Virus record (IMG/VR): IMGVR_UViG_3300042691_037918
Location: 1-52,006 of that record
Origin: a virus
Length of the DNA stretch: 52,006 nt
Reading direction: 5' to 3' (one strand)
Position numbers and translations under genes: made by a program. This document shows positions 401-43,614 of this stretch, piece after piece. The notes beneath the pieces were generated by a model. It did not search any database, was not told the origin of the DNA, and saw only the letters and a list, made by a program, of their open reading frames with translations. The first letter of the stretch is position 1, and every line of letters begins with the position of its first letter.

Positions 401-1224
401 AGCTAGTTCAGATCCTGGTAGGTATGACCTTTCAAGATTTGGTAAATAGCTCCGTGGTTACAGTCAAACTTTTCAGCAATCTTTCGATACGAGAGTCCTG
501 CTTCCTTTAAAGCTTTGATCTGAGCCACGTCTTCCGAAGAAAACTTTCTCAAAGTCTTTTTCGGTTTCCCTTTACTGGCAAAGCCATTGTTCTTGTAACA
601 ACCGGTTTCCCAGGCTCTTGTTAAATTTTCTTGTTTGGTAACGATCTCAAGATTGTCAAGTCGATTATTCCTCTTGTCATTATCTTTGTGATCAACTTGA
701 AGGGAAAAGTTACTGGTTCCATGAGAACGCAGATCTAATCCCAAAAAAGCTACAGCCATCAAGACATGAAGATGAAAACGCTTTCTCTTTCCATTAACAA
801 GAACTGAAACACGGTCATAAACACTGGTTGAACGAATAGGGATCTCTTGAAAATATTCTTGATTATCGGGATCAAGTTGTTTTTCAAAAGCTTTCCCCTC
901 TTCCGTTAAGTAAAGATTACCAAATCCAGGAACAAGCTTCGGATTCATGTTGTTTATAAACAAGTTTCCAAAGCGTAGCATGCCTCAACTGAACGCTCAA
1001 CGTTGTCACCCCACCGAGCAATCGATGGGTGCAAACCGGATGAATTCAGGGAAGCCCTAACGTCAAGACGAGGGTAATCCTGAGCCAAGCCAATCAAGCG
1101 TGATTGGAAGGTGCAGAGACTACTGGGGGTAACACGACCTTGTTACGTAATACCAGATTTAGCGTCCGGCATCCCACAGGGATGAAGAGATAGTCCACCC
1201 CTCTAAGAAACTAGAGACCAGGAG
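401..1224 (+). ncRNA. Group I self-splicing intron in the major capsid gene
   Basis: The 3' part (about 1003-1224) carries the conserved core. P3 is CCCCA at 1009-1013 with TGGGG at 1124-1128. P4 pairs TCAGG with CCTGA. The Q element reads AATCCTGAGCCAAGCC. P6 is a 7-bp hairpin, CCAATCA with TGATTGG. The R element GTGCAGAGACT is the same as in cyanobacterial and plastid tRNA-Leu introns, and P7 pairs its GACT with AGTC at the S element. P9 is CTCTA with TAGAG near 1201-1215. Together these support a group I intron, probably IC3-like. The 5' boundary is less certain than the 3' one. An HNH gene fills the 5' part on the opposite strand. Confidence 0.8.
403..981 (-). CDS. HNH homing endonuclease inside the capsid intron, antisense
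   Basis: 192 residues. The centre has the HNH_3-type pattern, LQVDHKDNDKRNNRLDNLEIV (D-H, then N-N-R, then N-L), at about residues 94-114. The C-terminal part (about 145-190) looks like a DNA-binding helix-turn-helix of the NUMOD type, with LKEAGLSYRKIAEKFDCN followed by a short tail. These are features of free-standing or intron-borne homing nucleases that cut intronless alleles. Unusually the gene is on the strand opposite to the intron and its stop codon lies within two bases of the proposed 5' splice site. Its own promoter would be needed for expression. Confidence 0.85.
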   Translation of the reverse strand: MLRFGNLFINNMNPKLVPGFGNLYLTEEGKAFEKQLDPDNQEYFQEIPIRSTSVYDRVSVLVNGKRKRFHLHVLMAVAFLGLDLRSHGTSNFSLQVDHKDNDKRNNRLDNLEIVTKQENLTRAWETGCYKNNGFASKGKPKKTLRKFSSEDVAQIKALKEAGLSYRKIAEKFDCNHGAIYQILKGHTYQDLN

Positions 1225-9836: not shown

Positions 9837-10301
9837 ATGTATTACAGCGAGCATGAGCCCATCGCCTTACTCGTTGAAGTCACGCCAAAGCTAGCAAAGA
9901 AACGGTTTAGAGACGAAATCTACAAATCCTGGAGCCACAAATGTGCTTATTGCGGTGAAGATGCAACAAGTTTGGACCATGTAATTCCACGTCACAAATC
10001 AGGTGAGACCACACGCAAGAACTTGGTTCCTGCTTGTAGACGTTGCAATGCCTCTAAGGCATCCTATAAATTACACGAGTGGTATTTAAATCAAGATTTC
10101 TTTTCTAAAGCTAGGCTTAATAGAATTGAAAGATGGATTGATCAGAATCCTTTCCAGGTATTGCATTGGGAAGACGAAACGGATTCATCGTTAGTACGTG
10201 TTAATTATGTCGGACAAACCAAGGAAGGCTGTAGCTGCTGCCAAGCGATACCAGAAAGACAAGATGAAATGCAACTCGCCACAAAGAACTCCTGGGCATA
10301 A
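9837..10301 (+). CDS. HNH endonuclease
   Basis: 154 residues. Classic zinc-bound HNH: CAYCG (about 38-42), LDHVIPRHKSG (about 48-58), NLVPACRRCNASK (about 62-74). It resembles the free-standing HNH nucleases found in phages and cyanobacteria. The last 32 residues are encoded over the start of the next gene in another frame and have no HNH homology in appearance, which suggests that the gene was inserted and reads through into its neighbour. The cut site cannot be predicted from sequence. Confidence 0.9.
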   Translation: MYYSEHEPIALLVEVTPKLAKKRFRDEIYKSWSHKCAYCGEDATSLDHVIPRHKSGETTRKNLVPACRRCNASKASYKLHEWYLNQDFFSKARLNRIERWIDQNPFQVLHWEDETDSSLVRVNYVGQTKEGCSCCQAIPERQDEMQLATKNSWA

Positions 10302-27967: not shown

Positions 27968-29143
27968 ATGGCAATACGTAGAGGCGGCGGTAATAACAGG
28001 CCATCTGGCGGAAATCCCCGTCCTGCAGGCCCCAGGCCGACTAGAGCAGCTGGCGGAAGTCCTCGTCCCGCTGCTCCTACACCAGCTCGACCCACTGGTG
28101 GCGGCCAACCCCGACGTGCTGCTGCCGCACCAGCTCGACCAATAGCCGGTCAAAGACGCCCCGCCCCAACTGCTGGCGCCCCAATCCCGGACCGTCGTAC
28201 AACCGGAGGTGCTCCAACGTCTCGCCAAGAGCGTGTTTCTTCTCTTGTACAAAAAGGAAAAGAAATGGTCCGTGGTGTAACTGCGGAAAAAGGTTTTGCT
28301 AATCTGCCTGCTTTTCAACAGATCCTGAAGGATTTAAAAGCCAGTGGCGCTAATAAACGAGTAGCAAACCTGCGTGCATTAAAACAAGAAGCAATGGGCA
28401 GGCCAGGTGGAACCGCCGGAAGCCCTGGTGCAACCGCAGCAGGTAATGACAGCTACAAGACTAATGCCATTGGTCAGTATGCACGTACCGCCGACATGTA
28501 TGGCATGGGCACTGCGGATCAAGGCGTATTTAGTGGGGCATCCTGGAACCAAGCCAAAGAAGCTGGTTTTACCGACGATCAAATCAAAGATTATTTATCA
28601 GGTGGTAACACCGGTTTGATGCTGGGAGAGCGGGTTAAAGATGTTGTAGAAAACTACGACAAGTACATGAAACCCGTGGTGCCCAACATGGAGTCATTTA
28701 CTGATCCACGCTCGGGCGACACCATTGGAGCTAGCACAGCTTCCAAGCCAAACGTTTTCTTTTCTCCCGTAAGCATGTCGGGAATTAAGAATATGTGGGG
28801 CAATGCAATGGATGACGTACACACTTCGCAGGTCATAGGTGACGGTGTTGATTGGAGTGATCCTAAGAATGCAGGAGCCCTTGGTAATTATTATTCTCGG
28901 GAAGGCGCTATGCGTGCACTAAACAGTGCATATGCAATGTCTACGGCAAATCCCGACCTACAAAAAAACATGGCTGCATTTATTGACAGCGGTCATGTTG
29001 AATCCCTTTTAACCGGAAGAACACCAACAGCGCTGCCCTCTGGATTTGCCGGGCTATTTAATCCAGCGATGACCGGACCCACTACGTCTTGGTCCAAAGC
29101 ATATGCAGATCAAATGGCGTACAAGGCCCCCTGGATGAAATAA
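27968..29143 (+). CDS. Unknown protein with basic Pro/Arg-rich N-terminus
   Basis: 391 residues. Residues 1-85 are made of RPTRAAGGSPRPAAP-like low-complexity repeats, very basic and likely disordered. The remaining 300 residues are globular and helical (ANLPAFQQILKDLKASGA, SREGAMRALNSAYAM). No catalytic motif. The basic tail suggests nucleic-acid binding or a virion-internal protein. It stands alone on the plus strand between two minus-strand units. Confidence 0.6.
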   Translation: MAIRRGGGNNRPSGGNPRPAGPRPTRAAGGSPRPAAPTPARPTGGGQPRRAAAAPARPIAGQRRPAPTAGAPIPDRRTTGGAPTSRQERVSSLVQKGKEMVRGVTAEKGFANLPAFQQILKDLKASGANKRVANLRALKQEAMGRPGGTAGSPGATAAGNDSYKTNAIGQYARTADMYGMGTADQGVFSGASWNQAKEAGFTDDQIKDYLSGGNTGLMLGERVKDVVENYDKYMKPVVPNMESFTDPRSGDTIGASTASKPNVFFSPVSMSGIKNMWGNAMDDVHTSQVIGDGVDWSDPKNAGALGNYYSREGAMRALNSAYAMSTANPDLQKNMAAFIDSGHVESLLTGRTPTALPSGFAGLFNPAMTGPTTSWSKAYADQMAYKAPWMK

Positions 29144-32382: not shown

Positions 32383-32646
32383 TCACTGAGACTTATTGGA
32401 CTCATTTAAGACTCCATGATTCTCTTTATCAACCTTTTCAAACTTGGCAAGCATCCTGTCATAAATTAAAACAGGATCTTCTTTTGTTACTACAGAAGAA
32501 TCACAAGCAATTGACCAAGCAAGACGCTTGCGTTTTTCAACTGGATGATCTGGGTTGTAAGCCACAGCACTCAATAAAGCCTTACGTATTGTACAAATAA
32601 AGATGTATTGTCTTGATAGAATGGTTTCATACGAATAGTTCATCAT
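32383..32646 (-). CDS. Unknown 87-residue protein, divergent to a basic gene
   Basis: A small soluble protein with helical character (VVTKEDPVLIYDRMLAKFEK). No motif recognised. Its start codon and the ATG of the plus-strand gene at 32645 share bases in CATCATG, so transcripts from the two must start inside each other's coding region. Confidence 0.5.
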   Translation of the reverse strand: MMNYSYETILSRQYIFICTIRKALLSAVAYNPDHPVEKRKRLAWSIACDSSVVTKEDPVLIYDRMLAKFEKVDKENHGVLNESNKSQ

Positions 32647-33025
32647 GCGTCAAGCTGGTAAAGGCGGCGGCAAACAAACACCAAAAGCCGTTAACAAAGC
32701 AGGTAGCAAGCAGGGCATGCCAAAGCCCCGTGCCGCAAAACCAGGCGAAAAAGCAAAAGCATCACGCCCTGTAGCCTCTAAAGGTGCCCCTGTTCGTCAA
32801 GAAAAACCACAGGCTGGCCAACGTCCTGCACGCGTACAAAAACAAAAAGCAACGCCAGTGCCTTCCCGTGGCACAGCACAAAAACCAAAAGCTGCAAAAC
32901 CAGCAGCAACCACAGGAACGAGTACTCCTACACCCACGAGTGCTCCCTCTTCCCCTTACATGGACATGTTAAATCAAATGCGTTCTCAAGCAACTGCCGC
33001 ACAGAGCGCAACACGTCCCCTTTAA
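32645..33025 (+). CDS. Lys/Pro/Ala-rich basic protein
   Basis: 126 residues, about a quarter Lys or Arg, with histone H1-like low complexity (KPRAAKPGEKAKASRPVASK) for about 90 residues and a short C-terminal helix (PYMDMLNQMRSQATAAQ). Probably disordered and nucleic-acid binding, perhaps packaged with DNA or condensing host DNA. This is from composition only. Its stop shares TTAA with the opposing nuclease gene. Confidence 0.55.
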   Translation: MRQAGKGGGKQTPKAVNKAGSKQGMPKPRAAKPGEKAKASRPVASKGAPVRQEKPQAGQRPARVQKQKATPVPSRGTAQKPKAAKPAATTGTSTPTPTSAPSSPYMDMLNQMRSQATAAQSATRPL

Positions 33026-40446: not shown

Positions 40447-40701
40447 GTGACCTGGGACACTGCTAAAAAACGTATCGATAAGAATCGACAGAAGTTTCTG
40501 GAGTACAAGAAGACTTTGCAGTGCAAGAAGTGTGGGTTGGATGATCATCGTGTTCTTGAGTTCCACCACATAGGTGACAAGGACAATAACATCTCCAGCA
40601 TGGTGAACCATGGCTACGCCTGGAGCAGGGTAGAGGAAGAGATCAGTAAATGTATTCCGTTATGTTGCAACTGCCATAGGCTTGAGCATTGGGCTAGTTA
40701 A
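40447..40701 (+). CDS. Small HNH endonuclease
   Basis: 84 residues, GTG start at 40447. CKKCGLDDHRVLEFHHIG (about 26-43) and CIPLCCNCHRLEH (about 69-81) form the Cys-bound HNH. Shares the TTAA stop overlap with the opposing gene. Together with the HNH at 39896 it flanks the last tRNA-like genes. Confidence 0.85.
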   Translation: MTWDTAKKRIDKNRQKFLEYKKTLQCKKCGLDDHRVLEFHHIGDKDNNISSMVNHGYAWSRVEEEISKCIPLCCNCHRLEHWAS

Positions 40702-41621
40702 CGGAATTTAAATTGAACAGGATAGCCAGCACCTGGTTGAATAAAACCAAACTTATCCGCAAGACCAAGAGCTCTATCCGCTAGTTTTCTGCTGCTTTCA
40801 GGTTCACCTACAACACCGCCAACCATAGAGCCTGGGGCAAATAAAGGTGTACCTACGTTGTAGGAATTAAAATCATATCTTTCATCAGCAGTTTGACCGT
40901 CTTGCACTTTATAACGCCCTAAAGTATTAACCAATCCTTTATTGACAAGAGCCGTTTGTTCTTGATTTAAACCCAAGCCTTGTGCACCAATGTTCCCATA
41001 ATCACCAACAACATAATTAGATGGTGTATATCCTTGTTGTCTTTGTTTAATTTTTTGTTCTGTTGTTTGAACAGCTAACTCATTTCGATCTCTTAATCCT
41101 AGTTGTTTTGTATATTCATTTACTCTTTGATCTAGTATATTTACTTGATTTAGTTGTTCTTGAGTTGCAGGTGAACCTTTGCCATACATGTTATACATTT
41201 CGTTTTGACTGTTTACTGCTCTAGAAGCATTTATCCAATCACCAAAAGTTTTTTCAGCTGTTAATCGCAAAGGATTTACGGTTACTTGCTGCGTTAGTTC
41301 TTTGTTCAGCAAAGCTTCTGCAGCTTTGGTATCAGCAGGAATGCGTGTTAAAGGTTGCGAAGTGCCTGAAAGAAACCTTGCAAACATCCCTTCTTTAGCA
41401 GGAACAATACCTGCTTCCATTCCTTTATCTAAAAGGGGAACAGCAACTTTATCTCGTACGGTTTTATAGATTGGTGATTGAGAAATATTGCGAATATCAG
41501 GAGCAATACCAGAAGAAATAGATGCTCCCCCTGGTAACACGCCTTTAAATACATTTTTATCAAGCTGACCGTATCCTCGGCTTACTTGATTGAGTAAGTT
41601 TTGAAATAAGTTTGGCATCAA
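40698..41621 (-). CDS. Unknown protein, Gln/Asn-rich
   Basis: 307 residues, overlapping the Dps-like gene by four bases. Helical and Gln/Asn/Gly-rich, with LLNKELTQQVTVNPLRLTAE and repeated polar stretches. AT-rich third positions give codon use unlike the neighbours, a possible sign of later acquisition. No family recognised; it may be virion-internal. Confidence 0.55.
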   Translation of the reverse strand: MMPNLFQNLLNQVSRGYGQLDKNVFKGVLPGGASISSGIAPDIRNISQSPIYKTVRDKVAVPLLDKGMEAGIVPAKEGMFARFLSGTSQPLTRIPADTKAAEALLNKELTQQVTVNPLRLTAEKTFGDWINASRAVNSQNEMYNMYGKGSPATQEQLNQVNILDQRVNEYTKQLGLRDRNELAVQTTEQKIKQRQQGYTPSNYVVGDYGNIGAQGLGLNQEQTALVNKGLVNTLGRYKVQDGQTADERYDFNSYNVGTPLFAPGSMVGGVVGEPESSRKLADRALGLADKFGFIQPGAGYPVQFKFR

Positions 41622-42169
41622 CCATTCCGCAACGTAGCTTTAATTTGCCAAGCAGCCTTGAAGGCTTGTCCGCATAAATCACTAAGATAGTTTTGAATAT
41701 CAATGGCACCCACCTTGGCAGCAATAGGCTCCAGCTTTTTGGACTTCATGCCCAGCTCTTCCAGGTTTTTGTAGTACGTGGTGAGCTGATCGGTTCCCTT
41801 GTAGCTGGTAACGTGTTGAATGCCAGGACCAGCATCAGCCAAACCCCTGGCGCACATAGGCATCAGGTAATCCATCGACCTGATGAATTCTGACAACGTA
41901 TCGAACTGAGTCTGATGAGCTTCGTATTGATCTCCAAGGAAGGCATGCACCCCGAGGAAGTTACCCCCCTCGTAGTTCAGGTGAATGAGATGGGCTTGTG
42001 TCTGAAGTTCCTTGAGGTAGGAAGCCAGGGAGATGCATTGTTGAATAAAGGCCCCGACATCACCATTTTTTGAGCGGGAGGGACCTTTTGGCTTGGCCTG
42101 AGGCTCTGGCACCTCTTGAACCTGAGCAGGTGCCATTGGCTGAGCAGTTTGAGGACCAGGCGTATACAT
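41618..42169 (-). CDS. Dps/ferritin-like protein
   Basis: 183 residues. After a Pro-rich N-terminus of about 35 residues comes a four-helix domain. LIHLNYEGGNFLGVHAFLGDQY and the following FDTLSEFI match the Dps ferroxidase pattern: H63, H75 (12 later), D90 (15 later) and E94 (4 later), the same spacing as in E. coli Dps H51, H63, D78 and E82. The C-terminal helix ends in AAWQIKATLRNG as in that family. Dps proteins store iron and bind DNA. An iron-binding role and a role in virion or host DNA protection are inferred. It could also be a divergent ferritin-like protein. Confidence 0.72.
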   Translation of the reverse strand: MYTPGPQTAQPMAPAQVQEVPEPQAKPKGPSRSKNGDVGAFIQQCISLASYLKELQTQAHLIHLNYEGGNFLGVHAFLGDQYEAHQTQFDTLSEFIRSMDYLMPMCARGLADAGPGIQHVTSYKGTDQLTTYYKNLEELGMKSKKLEPIAAKVGAIDIQNYLSDLCGQAFKAAWQIKATLRNG

Positions 42170-42221: not shown

Positions 42222-43541
42222 CTAACGACTGATCTCTTCCCAGTCCATGGAAGCAAGTATATCAGAGCCAGCTTGTGCAGTGCTGCAAGCCAAAGTTAAT
42301 TCAATAGCCGTACTGGTGAGACCATTACGTTCCAACTGAAATGCAAACAATGCTTCTTTCAAGATGTCAATAACGGTTGACCCTTGGTTAGAACCAGTAG
42401 CAAAACCACTGGCCAGAACACGTCCTGTACCGATAGTAAAAGACGTACCAGTGATGTTGTACTCAACAGAGGAGGTTGCACCTGTGGTATCCCAAGAGCC
42501 AGCCGAAGTTGTACCACCAACGATTACTTTCCAGTTATAGTTTGCGTTGTTGGTAATACCCATGATTGACAATGCAGTCAAGATAACAATTGCATCAAGA
42601 CGCGTTGACTTAAGGCGGATAGAGATAACTGGATACTCAGTAGAGGCGTTTGTTAAATCACGCGGAGAGGCAACTGGAGTCCCAATTGCAGATTGTGCAC
42701 CACGTAATTCATAACCACCTTCCGATAGTACGGTTGAACAAACTTGTTTTAATGTACTGCTGCTTGCCGTTGTATTAACGTTAGTAATTTCATAACGCAA
42801 CGGCAAGGATGCCGTTGTTATATAAGTGGATGTAATTAAATTGGCATGATGGAATGAATGGCAATGGATGAATGAGCCATTGATTACAAACCCTGCACGC
42901 ACGGTGCCAAGGCCAAGCCACTCAATATCAAACCAAAGGATTTGCGCCTTAGTAATATCAAGTGTGAAACCAGATGGCCCGTTGCCATCCAGCTTGTCAA
43001 TGTTCCAGTTGGCTTGAGCTACTCGTGTTTCAGTAAGGTCGCCATTTACAGAACTACGTTCAACCAAGGCCGGCTCAGTAGTACCACTGACTTCCAGGTA
43101 CATTCCATTGGATGCACCATAGTAACCAACGCGCTGCCTGAGGTTTGTCTTGGCAGCATTCATTACAAAGGTTGACATAAACAGCAGGGATTTCCCTGGT
43201 TGATATGAACAAACCTTGGTGGTTTCCCTGATGATCTGAGACCCAGATGCAGTTGTTACATTAAGGTCAACAAGACCCTCGTTTGCATTGAATGCGGATG
43301 TCGCACCAGTACCACTGGATGTAGACCATAAACCATTGTCGTTATAACGATGGCTTGAGTCAAATAGAGTTAAAGGTGCGGATACCCGAGTACGCCCAAA
43401 AGCATCCCCTGCCATGCCAGCAGGTTGAACATAAACATTATTTCCACTTGAGGTAGTTACTTCTAAGGGGCGCCCACTACAGGTTTGAACCTTATGTACG
43501 GGGTATAGGTTTTCGTCCGTTGGATCTCTGTAGTTAGGCAT
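42222..43541 (-). CDS. Virion structural protein
   Basis: 439 residues of beta-rich, Ser/Thr/Gly/Asn-rich sequence with jelly-roll-like strands (WNIDKLDGNGPSGFTLDITK, KAQILWFDIEWLGLG). I recall related proteins as conserved structural proteins of phages, but I cannot name the family. The terminator at 43587 marks the end of the upstream unit, so it has its own promoter in the 93-base gap before 43541. Confidence 0.65.
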   Translation of the reverse strand: MPNYRDPTDENLYPVHKVQTCSGRPLEVTTSSGNNVYVQPAGMAGDAFGRTRVSAPLTLFDSSHRYNDNGLWSTSSGTGATSAFNANEGLVDLNVTTASGSQIIRETTKVCSYQPGKSLLFMSTFVMNAAKTNLRQRVGYYGASNGMYLEVSGTTEPALVERSSVNGDLTETRVAQANWNIDKLDGNGPSGFTLDITKAQILWFDIEWLGLGTVRAGFVINGSFIHCHSFHHANLITSTYITTASLPLRYEITNVNTTASSSTLKQVCSTVLSEGGYELRGAQSAIGTPVASPRDLTNASTEYPVISIRLKSTRLDAIVILTALSIMGITNNANYNWKVIVGGTTSAGSWDTTGATSSVEYNITGTSFTIGTGRVLASGFATGSNQGSTVIDILKEALFAFQLERNGLTSTAIELTLACSTAQAGSDILASMDWEEISR

Positions 43542-43586
43542 GGTATATCTATAGCTTTTTTTATTCTAAGTTAAATACGTTAATAC

Positions 43587-43614
43587 AAAAAAGCAGTGAC
43601 CTGACGGCCACTGC
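43587..43614 (-). terminator. Rho-independent terminator of the right-hand operon
   Basis: On the minus strand GCAGTG pairs with CACTGC across a 10-base loop, then six U. It ends the leftward unit that finishes with the gene at 43635. Confidence 0.8.

Follow-up and report, generated by a model that had tools for sequence, protein, structure and literature searches.

In the Dps protein of Escherichia coli, the high-affinity iron site is formed by His51 and His63 of one subunit and Glu82 of the next, and the low-affinity site by Lys48 and Asp67 together with Asp78 of the next subunit (PMC6150300, PMC9140674). The canonical ferroxidase centre comprises five residues, with Asp or Glu at position 67 (E. 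coli numbering), and canonical Dps proteins occur in the Synechococcus, Prochlorococcus, and Cyanobium strains examined (PMC6675082). Nostoc Dps4 (NpDps4) has Asn67, yet oxidises iron with O2 (PMC6675082). In the cyanobacterial His-type proteins NpDps4 and TeDpsA, Asp78 is replaced by His and His164 is recruited. According to a passage of PMC13319912, flexible tails mediate DNA binding in most studied Dps.

Dps proteins are already known from phages, where annotation of them goes back at least to phiEco32. These include proteins of the Kuravirus/phiEco32 type (phiEco32 gp67, deposited as 'member of the Dps family', and SU10 CDS67) and of Privateer (QIN94861; Grimontviridae), which belong to PHROG_3636 for the members scanned. 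SU10 Dps is a middle gene whose protein has been detected by mass spectrometry (PMC4281155), and the Dps of Proteus phage Privateer has been detected in CsCl-purified virions (PMC7881722). Many phiEco32-type Dps genes (e.g. KF981730, MZ234017, and OP293233) carry the label 'integrase' in their records, an error that has apparently been copied from one record to the next. Phage-borne Dps of Gratiaviridae and of Lactobacillus myophages has been proposed to relieve oxidative stress (PMC8008677, PMC6669764). The freshwater Synechococcus myophage S-SRM01 carries a 'DNA starvation/stationary phase protection protein' that is not discussed in the S-SRM01 paper, and Synechococcus phage S-EIV1 carries AHV82153 (KJ410740), deposited as 'DNA-binding ferritin-like protein'; none of the papers searched names both S-EIV1 and ferritin.

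Here we describe a sound further member of this known family, encoded on the minus strand at 41618..42169 of a viral IMG/VR record (IMGVR_UViG_3300042691_037918, positions 1 to 52,006; the whole stretch, 52 kb, was analysed and is called the window). The explanation that we consider best, at a probability of roughly 0.75, is that the gene encodes a Dps-type mini-ferritin of S-EIV1-like cyanophages that oxidises iron and protects DNA in the infected cell.

Family assignment and phage lineage

An open reading frame with an ATG start and 183 codons for amino acids occupies exactly the positions given for the gene in a preliminary description made from the DNA letters. Its product matches Pfam Ferritin (PF00210; E 4.9e-8, which passes the curated threshold) and PHROG_3636 ('DNA binding protein'; E 5.9e-25, profile positions 8-148 of 149), a family that also contains Dps proteins of E. 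coli, Aeromonas, Proteus, Cronobacter, Lactobacillus, and Streptomyces phages. Against the PDB, a phmmer search with the single sequence retrieved Treponema TpF1 and HP-NAP (E about 4e-4), and a profile built from 53 homologues retrieved Campylobacter 3kwo (E 1.5e-9), followed by HP-NAP, CAIP, and other Dps. Judged by the Pfam, PHROG, and 53-homologue profile statistics, the resemblance to Dps is not due to chance. The NCBIfam equivalogs for cellular Dps match only weakly (E 0.02-0.05, far under the cut-off), and the protein therefore represents a divergent branch. The closest solved relatives by sequence, 3kwo, HP-NAP, and TpF1, are about 20% identical; like the window protein they have His in the place of Lys48, and unlike it they have Glu at position 67 and no comparable tail.

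The attribution to a cyanophage made in the preliminary description is borne out by the closest isolate, S-EIV1, to which the major head protein is 88%, the primase 64%, and Dps 61% identical. The head protein and primase identities establish the window as that of an S-EIV1-like cyanophage. S-EIV1 AHV82153 is an orthologue, the 61% identity extending over the full length, with the same tail and the same site including Gly at position 67.

Predicted fold

An AlphaFold2 model of the monomer, computed from 53 aligned sequences of the window and the loci, has a mean pLDDT of 82.9 and exceeds 90 over most of the core. The modelled helices (A, 36-65; B, 71-98; BC, 106-113; C, 125-152; and D, 156-182) form the arrangement typical of the Dps family, a bundle of four helices in which the short BC helix separates B from C. 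The best Foldseek matches listed from the PDB were all of Dps type, with query-normalised TM scores (TMq) mostly of 0.70-0.75. VIA-align gave Z of about 19-21.5 and rmsd mostly near 2 Å over about 145-150 residues; most of the matches were Dps, and the remaining few were other dodecameric mini-ferritins. Agrobacterium Dps (1o9r) is among the close structural matches. The preliminary description had staked its reading on a four-helix bundle with a dinuclear site, and the model supplies that bundle, BC helix included, with matches to Dps at Z of about 20.

Dps-like folds also lie within larger proteins of uncultured phages in BFVD (A0A6J7WPK9, A0A6J7XDU5, A0A6J7WIS1, A0A6J5RFH1, and A0A6J5N5R9). 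Three of these five are labelled 'Prohead protease', and such entries possibly represent a mini-ferritin fused to head-maturation proteins.

Ferroxidase site

The residues put forward earlier as ferroxidase ligands are at the positions claimed, and the gaps between H63, H75, D90, and E94 (12, 15, and 4) equal those between H51, H63, D78, and E82 of E. coli Dps. Their codons lie on the minus strand at 41981..41983, 41945..41947, 41900..41902, and 41888..41890, respectively. Each is invariant in 96 of 96 non-redundant phage homologues and aligned in other phage Dps as well, and the inter-subunit ligand set of the Dps family is present. The high-affinity site is complete. His60 (41990..41992, minus strand), the equivalent of Lys48 in the low-affinity site of E. 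coli (PMC6150300), is likewise His in all 96.

The dinuclear site proposed in the preliminary description stands as far as these four ligands are concerned; the fifth canonical ligand, which that description left out, is missing, Gly79 (41933..41935, minus strand) occupying the position of E. coli Asp67 (for the role of this residue see PMC6675082). Of the 96 family members, 63 have Lys at position 67 and 33 have Gly; none has an acidic residue there. Asp or Glu is found there in most other phage Dps examined, among them the phiEco32-type and Privateer proteins and that of Lactobacillus phage Semele (Asp in each case); S-SRM01 has Gly. The phiEco32-type and Privateer proteins share H51, H63, D78, and E82 with the window protein and differ from it further in having Lys at 48 and different tails. 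With no acidic residue at position 67, and with the invariant Asp90 at position 78, where NpDps4 and TeDpsA have His, the centre is neither canonical nor of the cyanobacterial His type.

Ferroxidase activity nevertheless seems likely, because the high-affinity site is complete and Halobacterium salinarum DpsA, for which iron-bearing structures have been solved, aligns with Gly at position 67. In the majority of members, which have Lys at this position, the second site might bind metal less strongly or differently. His85 was considered as a residue that might act as an additional ligand; helix periodicity would place it off the site.

One could also suppose that the protein is a catalytically dead Dps retained for structural compaction of DNA, with its iron site a relic. 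It is true that no member retains the position-67 carboxylate and that two thirds have Lys instead, but absolute invariance of H63, H75, D90, E94, and His60 is not what a relic site would display, and neither Halobacterium DpsA nor the iron-oxidising NpDps4, with its Asn67, has an acidic residue at this position (NpDps4: PMC6675082). Gly79 was rejected as the sign of a dead site on account of these two proteins, and we consider a relic very improbable.

N-terminal tail

Residues 1-35 (42065..42169, minus strand) precede the bundle as a Pro/Gln-rich tail that is predicted to be disordered, pLDDT being below 50 for residues 6-34. The N-terminal extension announced in the preliminary description is therefore real, and it carries a basic patch at residues 26-34; its supposed general richness in Lys is not, as residues 1-37 contain 8 Pro, 5 Gln, 3 Lys, and 1 Arg, with a net charge of +1. 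The patch (KPKGPSRSK at 42068..42094, minus strand; KPKxPx[KR]SK in the family) is a candidate DNA-binding element. K26, K28, K/R32, and K34 are each present in at least 95 of 97 sequences, and both the patch and an MYTP start are conserved in about 90-99% of members. Residues 8-20 between them are free to vary. Median pairwise dN/dS is about 0.09 in the folded core, indicating purifying selection, and about 0.29 in the tail, indicating weaker constraint.

DNA binding by the tail is plausible, since Dps proteins usually bind DNA through a flexible basic tail, and it could be weak given a net tail charge of about +1 to +3. Alternatively, the protein may only sequester iron or scavenge peroxide or oxygen, with the tail serving some other use such as docking to a phage protein. 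This is consistent with the concentration of the strongest conservation on the ferroxidase face and the bundle, with the variable residues 8-20 and weak charge of the tail, and with the close structural match to Agrobacterium Dps, which according to its PDB title protects DNA without binding it. Conservation of the patch and of the MYTP start inside an otherwise variable tail argues in the opposite direction, as does the use of flexible tails for DNA binding by most Dps covered in the passage of PMC13319912 cited above, and we regard an iron- or oxidant-scavenging role without DNA binding as rather unlikely.

Distribution and conservation

A first scan of IMG/VR yielded 209 stretches encoding Dps relatives, and two further scans added divergent members. 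The primase, not Dps, was used to select 13 S-EIV1-like records with a length of 75 kb or more. Exactly one Dps copy occurs in 12 of them, and the thirteenth encodes no ferritin-family protein at all; Dps is sometimes missing from shorter S-EIV1-like records, which are fragments. Dps is a near-core gene of the S-EIV1-like lineage. In one record (G020, locus L237, 42530-43079) an S-EIV1-like Dps gene is split across frames, by mutation or assembly error.

The S-EIV1-like proteins form a clade with a support of 1.000 on a long stem branch, and the other phage Dps, including that of S-SRM01, fall outside it. The window protein groups monophyletically with S-EIV1 Dps and shares the clade's KPKxPxKSK tail and its invariant His60 and His85. 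S-SRM01 Dps belongs to the same PHROG; it differs in lacking the tail (144 aa) and in having Trp at position 48. Its relatives were found in 146 phage records, most of them from E. coli phages. Exact-peptide patterns, which exclude close relatives only, revealed no relative of the window family or of S-SRM01 Dps in 84,980 bacterial and archaeal genomes.

Gene neighbourhood

Directly upstream of Dps, in the same orientation and separated from it by 52 nt, lies a gene for a 439-aa protein (42222..43541, minus strand) matching the virion structural family PHROG_1645 (E 9e-144). A gene of this family is the first one recognised upstream of Dps in 70 of 101 non-redundant loci, and it adjoins Dps in the near-complete genomes carrying both; homologues of the protein occur in 177 phage-collection records, mostly of Synechococcus phages, and also in HMO-2011. 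S-EIV1 differs from the window in lacking the PHROG_1645 gene and in having a downstream gene from another family. The phiEco32-type and Privateer genes, unlike that of the window, neighbour thioredoxin and ribonucleotide reductase genes.

A promoter -10-like motif, TAGAATAA, is located about 27 nt before the PHROG_1645 gene (43561..43568, minus strand). Of 70 relatives, 56 have a similar motif (TA[GA]AATA or GATAATA) ahead of this gene, in most cases at a distance of 26-35 nt from the start codon, so PHROG_1645 and Dps may form one cassette. Elsewhere in the window the motif is rare, and none was found before head or tail genes; hence it gives no hint of late expression. A hairpin followed by a T run, resembling an intrinsic terminator, precedes the putative cassette (43593..43614, minus strand). 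It was rejected as a general feature, with 11 of 70 relatives having one in the same place vs. 10 of 207 random control windows.

Downstream, the ATG of a gene with no known domain (40698..41618, minus strand) shares 1 nt with the Dps stop codon (TGATG), as in 41 of the 54 loci where a long co-directional gene follows; about half of the Dps loci have no such gene. The downstream genes belong to several unrelated families without recognised domains (94 to 808 aa; including those of L041, L073, L020, L089, and L002), and a fixed-function partner of Dps was rejected on the grounds that the families differ among phages. The L073 family has an HEAGH zinc-peptidase-like motif. In S-EIV1 the gene after Dps (AHV82152; L002, 20555-22021) bears the label 'sulfate adenylyltransferase', which neither Pfam nor PHROGs supports. 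C-terminal motifs (GSVAG, GLFFR, and IIGR) are shared among Dps-downstream genes, a pattern that suggests modular swapping.

The Dps cassette sits on the minus strand among replication genes (primase, SSB, and DNA polymerase), distant from the plus-strand region at 1-24 kb that holds the genes for the major head protein and the tail. HNH-endonuclease-like genes are present at 40447-40701 (+), 403-981 (-), and 9837-10301 (+), the first of which faces the Dps cassette and has relatives in 139 of the Dps loci. A 126-aa, Lys/Ala/Pro-rich, histone-H1-like basic protein (32645-33025, +; net charge +22; no PHROG match) is encoded elsewhere in the window, and in S-SRM01 a gene annotated as 'histone H1' lies at a distance of about 3 kb from Dps; phages of the window type and S-SRM01 may carry more than one DNA-compacting protein. 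Nor is there a PHROG match for the 391-aa product of 27968-29143 (+), whose N-terminal part is basic and rich in Arg, Pro, Ala, and Gly.

The usual placement of Dps directly downstream of a virion structural gene raises the question of whether the protein, as a cage or a monomer, travels in the virion, either attached to or packed alongside the phage DNA or as a constituent of the head, and reaches the new cell at infection to protect DNA or provide iron. The recovery of a Dps-family protein in Privateer virions and the Dps-like folds within 'Prohead protease' entries are compatible with such a role. For the suggestions of the preliminary description that iron is stored for the virion or delivered, the Privateer finding is the one piece of direct evidence. 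However, the cassette shares its strand and its side of the window with the replication genes and is remote from the plus-strand head and tail genes, the SU10 gene is a middle gene, and Dps or Dps-DNA particles might co-band with Privateer virions in CsCl. We consider a virion-associated protein unlikely. Decidedly less probable still is a compound version, in which an S-EIV1-like Dps with a ferroxidase chemistry of its own (four ligands, His at 48, and Lys/Gly at 67) is packaged with virion DNA. In that version, the phage genome would enter the photosynthetic cell already shielded from iron-driven oxidation.

Proposed function

Iron and peroxide detoxification combined with DNA protection during infection is, we infer, the most likely function of the S-EIV1-like Dps. 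In this scheme twelve subunits would form a cage, and Fe(II) would be oxidised at inter-subunit sites composed of H63 and H75 of one subunit and D90 and E94 of its neighbour, with O2 or peroxide as the oxidant. The oxidised iron would be stored as a ferric mineral, leaving less free iron for hydroxyl-radical chemistry in the photosynthetic cell, and the flexible tail with its KPKxPxKSK patch would allow the cage to bind and condense phage DNA. Dps would do most of its work inside the infected cell, during replication and packaging of the phage DNA. The dodecamer, its ferroxidase activity, DNA binding by the tail, and the protective role are thus all predicted properties. The host genus probably has a Dps of its own, which would count against the proposed role. 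The Gratiaviridae and Lactobacillus phages for which relief of oxidative stress was proposed differ from the window phage in infecting gut anaerobes and lactobacilli.

The altered second metal site amounts to a natural experiment on the dispensability of ferroxidase ligands. As a near-core gene in a widespread cyanophage lineage, Dps is not a stray acquisition, and control of iron and oxidative stress in cyanophage infection becomes testable in an isolated pair, S-EIV1 and its Synechococcus host.
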